Shown piece after piece: positions 7,101 to 14,086 of a stretch of DNA of 46,025 bases. The stretch is from Spirochaetota bacterium (GTDB taxonomy: Bacteria > Spirochaetota > Spirochaetia > Treponematales > UBA12059), in the NCBI GenBank assembly GCA_026398615.1, contig JAPLSN010000026.1, positions 1 to 46,025 on the forward strand, in the 5' to 3' direction. The position numbers and the translations under genes are program-made. Position 1 is the stretch's first letter. The number at the start of each line of letters is the position of its first letter. The notes beneath the pieces are model-generated. The model made no database searches. It had not been told where the DNA came from and saw only the letters and a list, made by a program, of their open reading frames with translations.

Positions 7101-9899
7101 TCACCCCTGTCCGCCGTCGACGCCCGCACCGAGCACGCTGTCCGCGAGCGCCTTGAAGCTCTTGTCGTATTTTTCCGCTCCGTTGCCGGCGCTCCCGTCA
7201 ATCTGGTAGACGCCGTCGCGGAACACGATGAGCTCGTCGTCCGCCGGCCCCGGTTCATCGCCGAGAGGTATCGCGTCCTGGATCGAGTCCTCTCCGTCAT
7301 CGTCGAAGGCCACCAGGTCCTCGACGGGAGCGAGCCAGGCCGGGCTCCTCCTCCTGTCGAACGGGATGTAGGCTCCGACGACCTCGGAGGAATCCGCCAG
7401 GCCGACCATCTCGATGAGGCCTCCCTCGTCGACCGGGGCGAACGGCAGTTCCTCGATGTAGTCGATGATGCTCGGCGACAGGAGCACGATTGGGCCCGAG
7501 TCGTCGTCGGCGCGCTCGGGCGTCGCGCTCTCGGCCGGACTCGGCTCGGAGGCGAAGGAATGCGCCAACGCGGCGACGGCCGTCATGGCGTCGGCGATGC
7601 CCTGGTCCTGGTCGAACCCCGCGAGTTCCGACAGGTCCAGCGCACCCAGCACGATTTCGAATTCCACTTCGTCGAGCAGGTCGGTGAACTCCGAAGGGTA
7701 TCGCTCCGTCGGGCGGGTGAACACCCCGCGGAACTCGTCGTCCACAAAGGGAATCTCGCGTCTCGAACGGTCATCCGAGCCGTCCAGGAGCTCGTCCTTC
7801 ATGTCGGGCGCGCCATATTCGGGGAGTTCCTCGAGCGGGGCGAAATCCTCGCACGAGCCTGGGGATGGTTCGTCTTCAGCCGCGGCCAATTCCGGAATCC
7901 CCTCGACATCGTCGAAGGCGGGTTCCATATCCCCGAACTCCGACGACGCGTCGTCGAAAGCCTCCGCGGAATCGCCGGCTTCCATGGCCCCGGGGATATC
8001 CTCGATCCCCGCATCATCGGGAATCGCCATTCCGCCTTCGTCCATACCTGCCAGGCCGACCAGGTTCGGGTCCAGGATGCCTTCTTCCAAAGACAATCTG
8101 TACAAGTCGGCATTATCCAGGTCGTCGCCTTCCTCCCCGTCGGGACCATCCGGACCCTGTCCGTTGAGGACTTCGGTAAAGGGAAGGTCCTGGAGGGTGT
8201 TGTACTCAAGGAGCTCCTCGTCCCCGGACGGTTCGCGGGTTCCGGTCGTCGATTTGAATGATTCTTCGGAAAGATACGAAGCGATGTCGAGCGAACCCGT
8301 GAAGAGATCCCCGGACGCGTCCTCCAGGGCTTCCGCGGCGACCGGCGCTTCGTGCCCCGGTTCGGACCTTTCAACGGTAGTCATGACGTGTTCTTGTGCC
8401 ACGACTTCGGCCACTTCCTCCGCTTCGGTGATTTCCTCGACTTCGGCAGCTTCCTCCGCTTCGGTGATTTCCTCGACCTCGGCGACTTCTTCCGCCTCAG
8501 CCACTTCCTCCGCTTCGGCGACTTCCCCGACCTCGGTCAGTTCCTCAGCCTCGTCCACGGTTCCTGGCACCGTGAGGGCAGCGGCCGTTCCGGGAACCGG
8601 CTGGCGGTAGTCCGGCGCCGCTATGACAAGACCGCTCGCGAGGGCGCGCTTGAGCATGTCCTCGATGCGGGAAAGGTCGCCCTCCGCCGGAGCGACCCTG
8701 GCGCCGAGGATCCTGATGATCTCGTCCCAGCTCCTGTCGATGAGTTCGTCGATATCGCGTTCCCGGGTCTTCCTGACTTTACCGAGGCTCGCGCGGATTT
8801 CCTTCCGCACGTCCGCCTTCCTGGCGTCGAGTTCCGCCTTCCAGCGCACGAAATCGATATCGGACTTGCGGTCCAGGTACTGTTCGAGGACCGCGATCTG
8901 GAAACGCTTGATCCGTTCCGACACCACGGCCATCCCGTCCTGCCTGAGGTTGAGGAGCAGGAAGGTTATCAGGAAGGCCGTGATGAAGAAGGTGCCGAGG
9001 AGCACGTAGCGCATGACGGGAGGAAATTCGAACAGGGCCGATGGTTTCATGAGACCGACCGTCCCGATCGCGGCCTTCGCCGAGAAAAGTTCGAAGGTTC
9101 CGGACGCATCCGTTCCCCCGATCGACGTCGGACCGGATGCCGTTCCTTGTGCCCACGCGGCTTCGATCCCCCCGCCGATCGCCTTCAGGAGCGCGGGATC
9201 CTTCATCGCGAATACGGGAACGCCGAAAACCAGGCCGCGTCGATCCACCGGCAGGACGGTGTCCCCGACGATGACGACGCCGGAGCGGGTCAGGTGATCC
9301 CAGAGACCGGAGATGGAAAGGTAAAAAATCGCGGTACCGCGGGTATTCCCGCCGTCGTCCTCGAAGGGCAGGCGGACCAGGAGGGCTTCCCGGGTCAGGG
9401 AAACGTCCACGGCAGCGGTACCCGCCTTCCCCCGGGCTTCGATACCCGCGTACGCTTCGTCGCCGGGTTCGCCGTAGTTCCGGTAGACGATGCGGAGCGG
9501 CTCGCGGACGGCTATGTCGGAATCGAAGGTGCTGTAATGGATTCGCTTGCCGTCCGTGTCGACGATCCTGACGCCGGCCAGCCCGAACGTGGCCTGCTTC
9601 AGGAGTCCGAACGCTTCCTCGCGGGCATTGATCGTCTGCGAACTGTTGTTGGCGTTGAGGGCTTCGTGGACATAGGGCCGCGAGAGGATTCCGGAAAACC
9701 GGGAGGCGAGTACGGAAACCCAGGAATCGACTTCCTGGCCGATCGCCGACAGGGACGTTTCGGTGTTGGACACGATCCGCGGACGGAAAAACCTGGTTTC
9801 GATCACGTCGAACAGGCCCGAATACGCGAACGCGGCAAACCCGGCGAACAGGAGGACGCTGAGGAGGAGGCTCAAGGACGCTTTCTGTCCGGTCGTCAT
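7101..9899 (-). CDS. Large two-segment membrane protein with acidic repeat region
   Basis: A 932-residue protein with membrane segments at about 9-30 and 295-318. Between them lies a roughly 260-residue extracytoplasmic region resembling a Cache-type sensor (ETSLSAIGQEVDSWVSVLAS, then a repetitive beta/alpha pattern); the Cache call is tentative. After the second segment a basic helical stretch (about 325-400) leads into a very acidic, low-complexity cytoplasmic tail, including seven near-repeats of EVAEAE-type hexapeptides (about 455-500). There is no kinase, GGDEF or methyl-accepting motif. It heads the operon with the membrane protein, M23 and PEGA genes. GGAG lies 12 bases before the ATG. 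Confidence 0.75.
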   Translation of the reverse strand: MTTGQKASLSLLLSVLLFAGFAAFAYSGLFDVIETRFFRPRIVSNTETSLSAIGQEVDSWVSVLASRFSGILSRPYVHEALNANNSSQTINAREEAFGLLKQATFGLAGVRIVDTDGKRIHYSTFDSDIAVREPLRIVYRNYGEPGDEAYAGIEARGKAGTAAVDVSLTREALLVRLPFEDDGGNTRGTAIFYLSISGLWDHLTRSGVVIVGDTVLPVDRRGLVFGVPVFAMKDPALLKAIGGGIEAAWAQGTASGPTSIGGTDASGTFELFSAKAAIGTVGLMKPSALFEFPPVMRYVLLGTFFITAFLITFLLLNLRQDGMAVVSERIKRFQIAVLEQYLDRKSDIDFVRWKAELDARKADVRKEIRASLGKVRKTRERDIDELIDRSWDEIIRILGARVAPAEGDLSRIEDMLKRALASGLVIAAPDYRQPVPGTAAALTVPGTVDEAEELTEVGEVAEAEEVAEAEEVAEVEEITEAEEAAEVEEITEAEEVAEVVAQEHVMTTVERSEPGHEAPVAAEALEDASGDLFTGSLDIASYLSEESFKSTTGTREPSGDEELLEYNTLQDLPFTEVLNGQGPDGPDGEEGDDLDNADLYRLSLEEGILDPNLVGLAGMDEGGMAIPDDAGIEDIPGAMEAGDSAEAFDDASSEFGDMEPAFDDVEGIPELAAAEDEPSPGSCEDFAPLEELPEYGAPDMKDELLDGSDDRSRREIPFVDDEFRGVFTRPTERYPSEFTDLLDEVEFEIVLGALDLSELAGFDQDQGIADAMTAVAALAHSFASEPSPAESATPERADDDSGPIVLLSPSIIDYIEELPFAPVDEGGLIEMVGLADSSEVVGAYIPFDRRRSPAWLAPVEDLVAFDDDGEDSIQDAIPLGDEPGPADDELIVFRDGVYQIDGSAGNGAEKYDKSFKALADSVLGAGVDGGQG
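8405..8535 (-). repeat. 18-bp coding tandem repeat (acidic hexapeptides)
   Basis: About seven degenerate 18-bp units in the large membrane protein gene encode hexapeptides of the form E-V/I-A/T-E-A/V-E. Units differ mainly at third positions and by Val/Ile and Ala/Thr swaps. Copy number may vary between strains. Confidence 0.75.
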
Positions 9900-10128: not shown

Positions 10129-10956
10129 ATGAAAACCGGTTTCGCAGATCGAGTCAAGAAAGCGGCCGCCGCGATCCCGACCGGTTTCAGGCCGGAAACG
10201 GCCGTCATTCTCGGTTCGGGCTTGTCCGGGATCGTCGATGGCTTGGGATACCATGAAATTTCCTACGCCCAGATCCCCGAGTTCCCCAAACCCACCGTGG
10301 CCGGCCACAAGGGCGTGCTCTGCCTCTCCGGGAAAAATGCCATCATGGCGGGCCGTTTCCATTATTACGAAGGCTTTTCGATGGACGACGTGGTGCTTCC
10401 CGTCTTCGTGCTCAGGGAACTCGGCGTGAAGAACCTCATCCTCACCAATGCGGCGGGCGGAATCAATCCCCGTTTCAACCCGGGCGATCTCGTCCTCATC
10501 GTGGACCACATCAACATGCTCGGCACCAATCCCTTCATCGGGCCCAATCCGGCGGGGGCTGACGGTCTCCCCCTGGGCGACCGCTTCTTCGACATGAGCG
10601 ACGTATACTCGAGGGACTTGCGCGCCATAGCCTGGTCCTGCGCCAAGGTCCCGCCGAAGGAAGGCGTTTACGCGGCCATGACCGGCCCCTCCTACGAAAC
10701 CCCGGCCGAGGTCCGGATGCTCAAGGCGATGGGAGCCGACCTCGTCGGGATGTCCACGGTACCGGAAGCCATCACGGCCCGCTACCTCGGGATGCGGGTG
10801 CTCGGCATTTCCTGCGTCACCAACATGGCCGCCGGCATCGGCACAACCCCGCTCGACCATGCGGAAGTCGTGGGCGTGGGCAAGAGGGTGGAAACCGAGC
10901 TCAAGCAGCTCATTTTCGGCGTGCTCTCCCGGCTGGAAATCCAGGGCGGAGCCTGA
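10129..10956 (+). CDS. punA: Purine nucleoside phosphorylase
   Basis: A 275-residue enzyme of the trimeric PNP-I family that splits purine (deoxy)nucleosides with phosphate in purine salvage. The signature is intact: ILGSGLSG (phosphate loop), GRFHYYEG, LTNAAGGIN, MTGPSYETPAEVRM, MSTVPEA and the base-binding VTNMAAG. Length is normal. The ATG at 10129 follows AGGGGG with about ten bases spacing. The helicase gene starts 73 bp downstream. The family could also include MTAP-like enzymes, but MSTVPE and VTN fit PNP. Confidence 0.9.
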   Translation: MKTGFADRVKKAAAAIPTGFRPETAVILGSGLSGIVDGLGYHEISYAQIPEFPKPTVAGHKGVLCLSGKNAIMAGRFHYYEGFSMDDVVLPVFVLRELGVKNLILTNAAGGINPRFNPGDLVLIVDHINMLGTNPFIGPNPAGADGLPLGDRFFDMSDVYSRDLRAIAWSCAKVPPKEGVYAAMTGPSYETPAEVRMLKAMGADLVGMSTVPEAITARYLGMRVLGISCVTNMAAGIGTTPLDHAEVVGVGKRVETELKQLIFGVLSRLEIQGGA

Positions 10957-11029: not shown

Positions 11030-13531
11030 ATGAGGGCTTCCGCGCGATTTACGCCCGAAGCGGCGGAAACGTACCGCCGCGCCATCGCCGACGCCCGAGG
11101 CAACGAAGTCTTCGCCTCGGGCAAGCTCGACGAAGAAGGCCTCGTTTCGGAAATCGTCGTGGCCGCCCGGGGCCACCGTTCCGCGGTGCCCGCCCTGGCC
11201 TCGTACGTCGACCGCGGTGACGTCCTCATCCACAACCACCCCTCCGGTTCCCTCGAACCGAGCGACGCCGACCTAGGGGTCGCGTCTCTGGCCGGCGACA
11301 AGGGCGCGGGCAGCTACATCGTCGACAACGAGGTCCGCGAAGTCTATGTCGTCGCGGAGCCGGCACGCAGGAAGGCGCTGCGGGCACTGGACGCGGACGA
11401 GATCGCAGGGGTCCTCGAAACCGGCGGCAAGCTCGCCTCGAGGCTTCCGGATTACGAACCCAGGGCCAGCCAGATCGACCTGACGCGCCGCATCGCCGTG
11501 GCGTTCAACGAGGGCTTCGTGCTGGCCGCGGAAGCGGGCACGGGGGTCGGCAAATCCTTCGCCTACCTCCTGCCCGCCTTCGCCTGGGCCGCGAGGAACA
11601 AGGAACGGGTGGTCGTATCCACCGCGACGATCAATCTCCAGCGCCAGCTCGTCGACAAGGACATCCCGGTCGTCGCCGCCCTCTTCAGGAATCCGCCGAA
11701 GGCCGTGCTCGTGAAGGGTCGCGGCAACTACCTGTGCTGGACGCGCATGACCGAAGCCCTCGACGAGGAAGGGCTGTTCGCCACGGAGGACCACCCGCTC
11801 AGGCGCATCGCGTCCTGGGCGGAAAAGAGTTCCTCCGGGGACCGCGCCGACCTCTCCTTCTGGCCGGAGGACGGAGCCTGGGGAAGGGTCTGCTCCGAGG
11901 CCGACGCCTGCCTCGGCCTGCGTTGCGCGTACCGCGAACGATGTTTCGTCCTCAGGATGAAGCGCGAAGCCTCCGACGCGGACCTCATCGTCGCCAACCA
12001 CCACATCCTGTTCTCGGACCTGGCCGCGAGGATGGATGGGGCCGGCTACGAGGGCACCGCGGTCCTCCCTCCCTTCACATCCCTCATCTTCGACGAAGCC
12101 CATTCCATCGAGGCGAGCGCCACCGATTTCTTCTCCCGCGAACTCACCCGCTTCCAGGTGCTCAAGCAGCTTTCAAGCCTCTACCGCACCCGCAGGGACC
12201 GCACGTTCGGCCTCCTGCCGCGGCTGCAGAACGTCTCGGGCATACCGGGCGAACTCTGGAGCAAGATCCCCGGTGCCATCGCGGCGGCGCGCGACGCCGT
12301 CGAGCTCTTGGACGTCCGCGCCCTCCCGCTGTTCGGCAGGGAGAGCGGGATCAGGGTGACGGAGCGGACCGGCGCCCTGGATGCCGGGGTCTTCGAACCG
12401 CTCGCGGCCATTGAAAAAGCCCTCGTAACCCTAGTCCAGATCCTCAAGGACGCCCTGGAGGGCATGCCCGACGGCGCGCAGGAAGACCCGACCGTCTACG
12501 AAGCCAGGCTCGCCCTCAGGCGGCTCGCCGATTCTGGCGGCGTCTGCGCGTCCTTCCGCGGCTTTTCCGACGACCCCGACCGCGTCTACTGGATCGAGCG
12601 GGGTCGGACTTCGTCAGGCGACCAGTTCGTCCGCGTGGTCATCACGCCCCTCGACATTTCCGGGCTCATGCACGAATCGGTATTCGGGCGTTTCAGGACC
12701 GTCGTCTGCGTTTCCGCCACCCTCGCCGTCGCGGGCGGTTTCGGTTTCTGGAAAAATCGCGTGGGCCTAGGCTTCACCGGGATCGACGCGCCAAGGGACG
12801 ATGACGGACCCGGCGCGTTCGCGGACGGCACGGGCGACGGGCTGCGGGTGGAAACGGGCATCTACCCCTCGCCCTTCCCCTATGACAGGAACGTGCTCCT
12901 CGCCCTGGCATCCGACGCGCCCTTCCCCGATTCCCCGGACTGGCAGGATTACATCAACGGCTCGGTTCAGGCGACGCTCCGGGCGTCGAAGGGCCACGCC
13001 CTCGTCCTGTTCACCTCGTACGACTCGCTCAGGAAGGCCTTCGACGCCGCCAAACCCGGCCTCGACGCGATGGGCATCACGGCGCTCCGGCAAGGCGACA
13101 ACGAACGCTCGAAGCTCCTCGACGCATTCAAGACGGACAGCGCGAGCGTCCTTTTCGCCACGGATTCCTTCTGGGAGGGCGTCGACGCCCCCGGCGACAC
13201 CCTCCAGGTCGTGATCATCTGCAAGCTGCCCTTCCGCGTGCCCACCGACCCGGTCCAGAAAGCCAGGGCCGAGGCCGTCGAGCGTCGCGGCGGCAACGCG
13301 TTCATGGACCTCTCGCTGCCCGAAGCCGTCATCCGGTTCAAGCAGGGATTCGGCCGCCTCATCCGGCACTCCGAGGACCGGGGCGCCGTGGTCGTGCTGG
13401 ACGGCAGGATCCTCAGGAAACAGTATGGCCGGCTATTCATCTCGTCCCTGCCCGAGTGCGGAACCATGCAGGGCGGGACGGCCGAGATCGCGGAAGCGGT
13501 CGGGAACTTCCTCGGTCGAAGCGGGGCGTGA
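11030..13531 (+). CDS. JAB/RadC-like domain fused to a DinG/XPD-type helicase
   Basis: An 833-residue protein. Residues about 1-110 form a JAB (Mov34/RadC-like) domain with the metal motif H68-x-H70-P-S-G and D81 at the expected HxHx10D spacing. From about 145 follows an XPD/DinG superfamily-2 helicase: Walker A EAGTGVGKS (168-176), iron-sulphur cysteines probably C236, C294, C299 and C305 (C288 also nearby), the DEAH box at 355-358, VCVSATLA, SFWEGVDAPG, and QGFGRLIR as motif VI. The helicase should be a 5'-3' DNA helicase acting on damaged or structured DNA. The JAB domain could be a peptidase or a non-catalytic module. GGAAG lies about ten bases before the ATG. Confidence 0.87.
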   Translation: MRASARFTPEAAETYRRAIADARGNEVFASGKLDEEGLVSEIVVAARGHRSAVPALASYVDRGDVLIHNHPSGSLEPSDADLGVASLAGDKGAGSYIVDNEVREVYVVAEPARRKALRALDADEIAGVLETGGKLASRLPDYEPRASQIDLTRRIAVAFNEGFVLAAEAGTGVGKSFAYLLPAFAWAARNKERVVVSTATINLQRQLVDKDIPVVAALFRNPPKAVLVKGRGNYLCWTRMTEALDEEGLFATEDHPLRRIASWAEKSSSGDRADLSFWPEDGAWGRVCSEADACLGLRCAYRERCFVLRMKREASDADLIVANHHILFSDLAARMDGAGYEGTAVLPPFTSLIFDEAHSIEASATDFFSRELTRFQVLKQLSSLYRTRRDRTFGLLPRLQNVSGIPGELWSKIPGAIAAARDAVELLDVRALPLFGRESGIRVTERTGALDAGVFEPLAAIEKALVTLVQILKDALEGMPDGAQEDPTVYEARLALRRLADSGGVCASFRGFSDDPDRVYWIERGRTSSGDQFVRVVITPLDISGLMHESVFGRFRTVVCVSATLAVAGGFGFWKNRVGLGFTGIDAPRDDDGPGAFADGTGDGLRVETGIYPSPFPYDRNVLLALASDAPFPDSPDWQDYINGSVQATLRASKGHALVLFTSYDSLRKAFDAAKPGLDAMGITALRQGDNERSKLLDAFKTDSASVLFATDSFWEGVDAPGDTLQVVIICKLPFRVPTDPVQKARAEAVERRGGNAFMDLSLPEAVIRFKQGFGRLIRHSEDRGAVVVLDGRILRKQYGRLFISSLPECGTMQGGTAEIAEAVGNFLGRSGA

Positions 13532-13561
13532 TCCGGCTTCCCCAGGGACTCACGTCCCGTG

Positions 13562-13567
13562 TATACT
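13562..13567 (+). promoter_or_regulatory. -10 element immediately before the manA remnant
   Basis: TATACT ends seven bases before the ATG at 13575 and there is no Shine-Dalgarno, suggesting a leaderless transcript. The -35 region is poor. Confidence 0.4.
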
Positions 13568-13574
13568 CGCGCCG

Positions 13575-14086
13575 ATGCGGGTATATCCTCTCGGAAACGT
13601 CATGAAGCACTGTCCCTGGGGGGGTGCGGAAGCGATTCTTTCCCTCCTCGGCTTGTCCAATCCCGGGCGAAAGCCCTTCGCCGAACTGTGGCTGGGCGCC
13701 CGCCGGAATTCGCCGAGCCTCATGACGGTCTGCGGCGGGCGCATGCGCCTAGACGAGCACGCGGCCGCCGATCCTTCGGGTGTGCTGGGGAACCTGCCCC
13801 CGGCGAAATGGCGGTCGCCATGGACCGTCTCGAACTCCCGTGCGGATTCAGTCCGATCGAGCGGATCATCGACAACATGAAAGCCGTCCTCCCCGAGGGA
13901 TGTCTTTCGCATCTCGCGCGCCTCGAACGCCTGCGGGACAGGGCTGAACTCGCCGCCCCGGACGGCCGAATCGCGCTGCCCAAGGGAGTTTCGGTCTTCG
14001 TCGACGCCGTCGCCGTCGCCGGACCATATTCCATCGGAGGGAGCGCGGTCCTCTGCCGCGCGGGACCGGGGTACGGCGCGGCATGA
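13575..14086 (+). pseudogene. manA: Mannose-6-phosphate isomerase remnant (frameshifted, internally deleted)
   Basis: The first 70 or so codons read as the start of a type I phosphomannose isomerase: VYPLGNVMKHCPWGG, then AELWLGARRNSPS and LDEHAAADPSGVLG. The frame then fails near 13790 and runs to a stop at 13880. A second frame carries a plausible tail up to 14086, including GVSVFVDAVAVAGPYSIGGS and LCRAGPG, which resembles the cupin end of these enzymes. Intact enzymes are about 300-400 residues; the zinc-binding middle is absent. Its final stop overlaps the YaiI-family start. I consider it dead. Confidence 0.65.

Follow-up and report, generated by a model that had tools for sequence, protein, structure and literature searches.

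The window, by which we mean the whole stretch of 46,025 nucleotides that was analysed (contig JAPLSN010000026.1 of the Spirochaetota bacterium assembly GCA_026398615.1), carries on its forward strand a single gene in which a domain of predicted JAMM fold, a putative metal hydrolase, is joined to the N-terminus of an Fe-S helicase of the YoaA/DinG type (Table 1). The reading frame starts with the ATG at 11030; an in-frame ATG further upstream, at 10859, falls inside the preceding ORF (end at 10956), and most relatives begin at the equivalent of 11030, so a misplaced start was rejected. No other Helicase_C_2 protein is encoded in the same genome, which also contains a separate, ordinary RadC on a different contig.

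Table 1. Coordinates of the JAB-DinG gene and its parts within the window.
Feature	Position	Strand	Remarks
RadC-like DinG gene	11030..13531	+	833 aa plus stop
JAB/JAMM head, residues 1-112	11030..11365	+	Approximate boundary; fold matches cover ~4-110
E26, upstream Glu of the JAMM motif	11105..11107	+	Alignment and locus counts
HNHPSGSLEPSDAD = H68, H70, S78, D81 (HxHx7SxxD)	11231..11272	+	Profile match, alignment
Linker, residues 113-135	11366..11434	+	Conserved G132, G133, L135
DinG/YoaA-type helicase, residues 136-833	11435..13528	+	Profile and structure matches
Helicase motifs: Walker A Lys 175, DEAH 355-358, motif VI Arg 776 and 779	within 11435..13528	+	
Fe-S region, C236, C294, C299, C305	11735..11944	+	Cys in 60, 60, 62 and 62 of 62 sequences

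At the level of sequence and model the helicase is complete, Fe-S cysteines included. Its core is shared with E. coli YoaA: the YoaA profile NF053712 matched residues 128-813 with E 7e-156 and 520 bits, under the model cut-off of 680. The full-length model (pLDDT 88.9, pTM 0.84) had E. coli DinG with ssDNA (6fwr, E 1e-37) as its best match among solved structures, and it ends in a helix (817-832) that may or may not correspond to alpha7, the C-terminal helix of MD2 in YoaA. ExoDinG likewise has an additional enzyme domain N-terminal to a DinG helicase, but there the head is a DnaQ-type exonuclease, whereas in the window protein it is a JAB domain. A Pfam scan of the window protein at E 10 reported no exonuclease family, and the DnaQ-DinG models of NCBIfam matched under their cut-offs and aligned best to the C-terminal part, the helicase. 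The helicase part was also matched by the typeIV_DinG models of PADLOC, which we took as general DinG similarity and not as a sign of CRISPR type IV DinG.

The JAMM motif has the form E-xn-H-x-H-x7-S-x2-D, and the head fits it completely. The first-pass annotation of this DNA had proposed a JAB/RadC-like domain and a DinG/XPD-type Fe-S helicase on one chain, with H68, H70 and D81 as metal ligands and an upstream Glu still to be located. The domain identities and the three positions proved exact, and the missing Glu is E26. When the N-terminal 142 residues were scanned alone, the RadC profile PF04002 matched residues 65-84 above its cut-off (E 1.6e-5, 25.2 bits versus 22.1), so that the annotation survived its refuting condition of no JAB profile match, while in the whole protein the score was slightly under the cut-off (20.4 bits), because the alignment covers these residues only. 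The match aligned profile positions 68-87 of 121, short of a full-length RadC match. With the window protein and 80 relatives each scanned in this way, PF04002 was matched by all 81 N-termini at E ≤ 0.1 (best 6e-11) and Prok-JAB by 56 of the 81.

All five motif residues were invariant in an alignment of 81 sequences, where the count is biased for H68 and H70, because both His belonged to the search pattern behind 80 of the sequences, and where E26, S78 and D81 lay outside that pattern. E26 was also present in 29 of the 29 sequences that reach its position in a smaller alignment. Among 112 loci picked without the motif, H68 was found in 111 and H70, S78 and D81 each in 112; E26 was found in 110 of 111, a further locus being truncated where its contig stops. 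As nearly all of these loci were picked by a match to the window protein starting near the N-terminus, badly decayed heads may be under-counted. The ligands are not without variation, however: genome G181 (locus L180, included since its match starts at residue 55) has a decayed head, with Ser in place of the first His and no conserved Glu. At this locus (G181:C3:210900-214300) the head and a helicase still share one frame, and it may represent a natural dead-site variant. Conservation across phyla and the fold match rule out a chance motif.

An AlphaFold2 model of the head alone (pLDDT 92, pTM 0.81) has the JAMM fold, with strands at 27-33, 39-47 and 65-69, a helix at 79-90 and strands at 94-98 and 104-109. 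In this model strand 65-69 ends in HxH and the next helix opens with S78 and D81, an arrangement that bears out the metal site of the first-pass annotation at the level of prediction. The best solved structures in Foldseek were RadC (2qlc, 7e-5), an archaeal Rpn11 homologue (6fno, 2e-4), bacterial BubCD (9ea4, 2e-4) and CSN5. In VIA-align RadC (Z 8.3, rmsd 3.0, 98 aligned) ranked below the JAMM peptidases, which were led by BubCD (Z 10.7, rmsd 2.6, 108 aligned), CsRpn11 (10.2), yeast Rpn11 (9.8) and PfJAMM1 (9.7). By sequence RadC was closest (E 5e-8), followed by BubCD (0.16) and AfJAMM (0.67-0.8). The head resembles the JAMM/MPN+ metallopeptidases (PfJAMM1, CsRpn11, Rpn11, CSN5, BubCD) in fold (Z 9.6-10.7) and in the full ExnHxHx7SxxD motif, but its sequence similarity to them is weak (E 0.16 or worse) and it has no ubiquitin-like partner nearby. 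The Ser that JAMM peptidases conserve is present in the heads as well, as S78.

With RadC proper (PF04002; E. coli RadC; 2qlc) the head shares the HNHPSG signature, the order E/HxH/S/D and the JAB fold. RadC proper is, in contrast, a stand-alone protein with an HPREVF-type segment. This segment, written H[PS]RE[VI][FY] and lying between the Glu and HxH, was found in 22 of 23 RadC loci from the window's genome and its relatives (16 of 23 with the stricter pattern HPRE.F) and in 0 of the 81 JAB-DinG heads. In addition, the spacing between the Glu and the first of the two His was 50 in each of these 22 RadC loci versus 41-57 (median 42) in the 81 heads. By these sequence features the JAB-DinG head is not RadC proper but a JAB branch of its own, with the HNHPSG signature in common.

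The fusion itself is already known: RadC-DinG fusions were mentioned in 2017 (PMC5512222, aravind group), and 'RadC-like DinG' was described in 2025 as one of ten DinG subgroups (Cheng 2025, PMC11981726, section 3.8). The window protein is almost certainly a member of this subgroup. Like the type from Desulfuromonas soudanensis, as characterised in that section, it has a RadC-like N-terminus with E, two H and D (the ligands named there, with Zn modelled), a YoaA-like helicase with Fe-S cysteines, the same domain order and a genome without HolC; in the points given there we saw no essential difference. The first-pass statement that DinG proteins usually either lack an extra domain or carry an exonuclease at the head is therefore outdated. 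The passages of PMC11981726 on RadC-like DinG state that there has been no research on it so far, and they do not discuss Spirochaetota by that name, head-less orthologues or a missing HPREVF segment. What is added here is the absence of that segment, the repeated gain or loss of the head and the intactness of the ligands where the head is present. In the literature searched, which included few subscription papers, we found no functional study of a RadC-DinG fusion (substrate or activity), and a search for RadC together with DNA-protein crosslinks gave nothing relevant.

The architecture is widespread in Spirochaetota, the phylum for which a survey had first been suggested, and occurs in several other phyla. 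A scan of named genomes returned at least 344 related stretches, and in all of the best 80, which were kept, the JAB head stands in one frame with DinG as far as the contig reaches (73 complete frames, 7 cut by the contig). By their record titles many of these 80 are Spirochaetota, and the others include Halanaerobiales, Desulfuromonadales/Geobacteraceae, Fusobacteriaceae, Gemmatimonadota and Planctomycetota. Within the phylum the window protein was matched in 220 of 246 genomes; among the matches listed, some span the whole protein and some start at residue ~108-130. The head was confirmed in 20 of 20 headed loci chosen, while 20 loci chosen as head-less showed no head in any reading frame of the sequence retrieved, which in most of them extended ~1.3-1.5 kb upstream. 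The head-less orthologues start at about residue 110-130 of the window protein.

A tree built from the helicase part alone had 88 rows, of which 67 were headed, 19 were head-less and two were E. coli outgroups, YoaA and DinG; head-less locus L126 was omitted for want of a cleanly called frame. On this tree 13 changes are required to explain the headed label, and starred branches force at least 8 of these; the corresponding figures for the head-less label are 11 and 7. After removal of the outgroups and one long row, the label needed 10 changes on the remaining 85 rows, and an AU test rejected a single clade of the 19 head-less rows (p 0.00012). Because the trees were built quickly and include many rows of odd composition, the exact number of changes is uncertain, but not that headed and head-less states changed more than once. 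The helicase was kept throughout. E. coli YoaA and DinG failed as a root, as they had long branches and did not group with each other. We infer that the changes are most simply repeated losses of the head, since the headed form is broad, the head-less rows are nested, and the pairwise identities of JAB and helicase are correlated (r 0.79, 62 sequences), a correlation which also indicates that heads travel with their helicases. A natural comparison pair is provided by Treponema bryantii, which is headed (L098), and a head-less relative (G270, L124): their helicases are 87% identical over 699 residues, and the two loci have a common stretch just upstream that by eye resembles a tRNA gene.

A detached JAB head elsewhere in the genome was not found in 23 head-less genomes by JAB-profile search, which gave weak matches only, most of them in frames that were short or of RadC size. 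The best E values there ranged from 1.2e-8 to 1.7e-4, with no match in G263, versus E ≤ 9.4e-47 in nine headed genomes. Two JAB matches from these searches (G185:C30:8333-8458 and G037:C4:64276-64377) lie in frames of 1992-1993 aa and are possibly RadC domains of polyvalent proteins of mobile elements. Genome G190 has four frames of 73-92 aa (contigs C45, C23, C35 and C18) with matches to the RadC-like HNHP region, which are possibly repeated RadC fragments.

The JAB-DinG gene is chromosomal. Its JAB domain had no match at E 1e-3 in 50,697 phage and 72,556 plasmid records and the neighbours resemble household genes, and a mobile or phage origin was rejected on these grounds. Gene blocks vary by clade, with no partner gene conserved across clades and no repair or ubiquitin-like neighbour recurring across the compared loci. 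In Treponema-like loci the gene is preceded by what is presumably an amidase-like protein and followed by what we take to be S20-like and HU-like proteins. In the closer relatives of the window (14 loci, window included) it is followed by a protein that we assume to be mannose-6-phosphate isomerase-like.

What might the head do? The reading that we tentatively prefer, although as a whole mechanism it falls somewhat short of probable, is a zinc hydrolase tethered to a helicase, probably an (iso)peptidase that acts on protein at ssDNA or stalled forks. At a fork that has stalled or has a gap, the helicase would load on ssDNA and translocate until it meets an obstacle; the zinc site tethered to it would then cut the protein encountered at an amide or (iso)peptide bond. 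The head would be an accessory activity that lineages can dispense with. Removal of a protein from DNA and targeting to stalled forks, both suggested in the first-pass annotation, may apply. The loss pattern, with ligands otherwise intact, fits such a catalytic but dispensable accessory activity and leads us to predict that the activity is real and optional. The (iso)peptidase reading is favoured by ligands that are intact in nearly all loci, by the lead of JAMM peptidases in the ranking of the modelled fold together with the conserved Ser, by the co-variation of heads with helicases, and by a head that, one decayed copy aside, is either kept with its site or lost. The DALI comparison of the RadC-like domain reported in PMC11981726 also counts for it, as metalloproteases were similar and nucleases were not. 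Counting against it are the decayed head of G181, the proximity of the head in sequence to RadC and not to peptidase JAMMs, and the lack of a recurring repair or ubiquitin-like neighbour across the compared loci. Two points from the literature also weigh against it: in its treatment of RadC-type JABs, PMC5512222 considers a groove for the ubiquitin tail unlikely and prefers nucleic-acid processing, and E. coli radC mutants cited in PMC11981726 have normal DNA-damage sensitivity.

Alternatively, and in our view rather unlikely, the head could serve chiefly for docking, recruiting the helicase to SSB, the clamp or the fork in bacteria without HolC, with the metal there for stability. MPN domains are often scaffolds, which favours docking, but the Glu, both His, the Ser and the Asp are kept in nearly every copy, as a scaffold need not do, and closely related helicases manage without a head. 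The case for docking lies also in HolC: E. coli YoaA, which has no head, works through HolC/chi (PMC4636137, PMC8378479), and HolC (PF04364) had no match in the window's genome (it was found in 2 of 14 control genomes, E. coli among them), in line with its absence from organisms with RadC-like DinG as given in PMC11981726.

It is unlikely that the head is instead a nuclease or nucleotide-processing metal enzyme which trims the strand exposed by the helicase, in the position of the ExoDinG exonuclease. The fold neighbours of solved function are JAMM peptidases, the known JAMM chemistry is amide hydrolysis, and these points argue against a nuclease even though RadC is closest by sequence. The nucleic-acid role proposed in PMC5512222 was, in the passages concerned, drawn from contexts that include DinG/RAD3 fusions, and the head is N-terminal like the nuclease heads that other DinG subgroups carry according to PMC11981726; the absence of nuclease similarity in the DALI results of the latter points the other way. 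Self-processing, suggested in the first-pass annotation, is very improbable: cleavage of the own chain by the head, to release or activate the helicase, would agree with a helicase that can stand alone in head-less orthologues, but these simply start near the helicase, the only conserved linker positions are small (the three in Table 1), and nothing points to actual cleavage.

Returning to the (iso)peptidase reading, a more specific and doubtful form of it is drawn from animal DNA-protein crosslink repair, in which FANCJ, listed in PMC11981726 as a eukaryotic homologue, translocates into a crosslinked protein and unfolds it, whereupon SPRTN cuts (as described in PMC12279946), and this analogy counts in favour of a peptidase. 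By the same analogy, JAB-DinG might be a one-chain bacterial protease for the clearance of DNA-bound or crosslinked proteins, the translocase running into the adduct and unfolding it and the JAMM head cutting it. It would then be a repair module that can be lost from lineages. If so, the job done by FANCJ plus SPRTN would be carried out in a single chain. The likeness is of the works-like kind only, a helicase of the XPD/DinG family beside a metalloprotease; FANCJ and SPRTN are two separate proteins, SPRTN comes from another protease family, and a shared activity is not implied. RadC is widespread, yet the function of the RadC-type JAB is unsettled in the literature covered, and its natural fusion to a helicase restricts where it can act, namely at ssDNA and stalled forks.

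Two further regions of the window were observed. The mannose-6-phosphate isomerase-like gene that is intact after JAB-DinG in relatives seems to be reduced to a remnant in the window: at 13482-13954 (+) there are ~100 residues of its N-terminal part, with 30-44% identity, and further on a short patch. On the other side of JAB-DinG, at 7101-9899 (-), lies a frame for a protein of 932 aa that has a hydrophobic segment at its N-terminus and contains a long stretch of acidic character, rich in repeats (EEVAEAEEVAEVEEI...), and related frames are present at four other loci.
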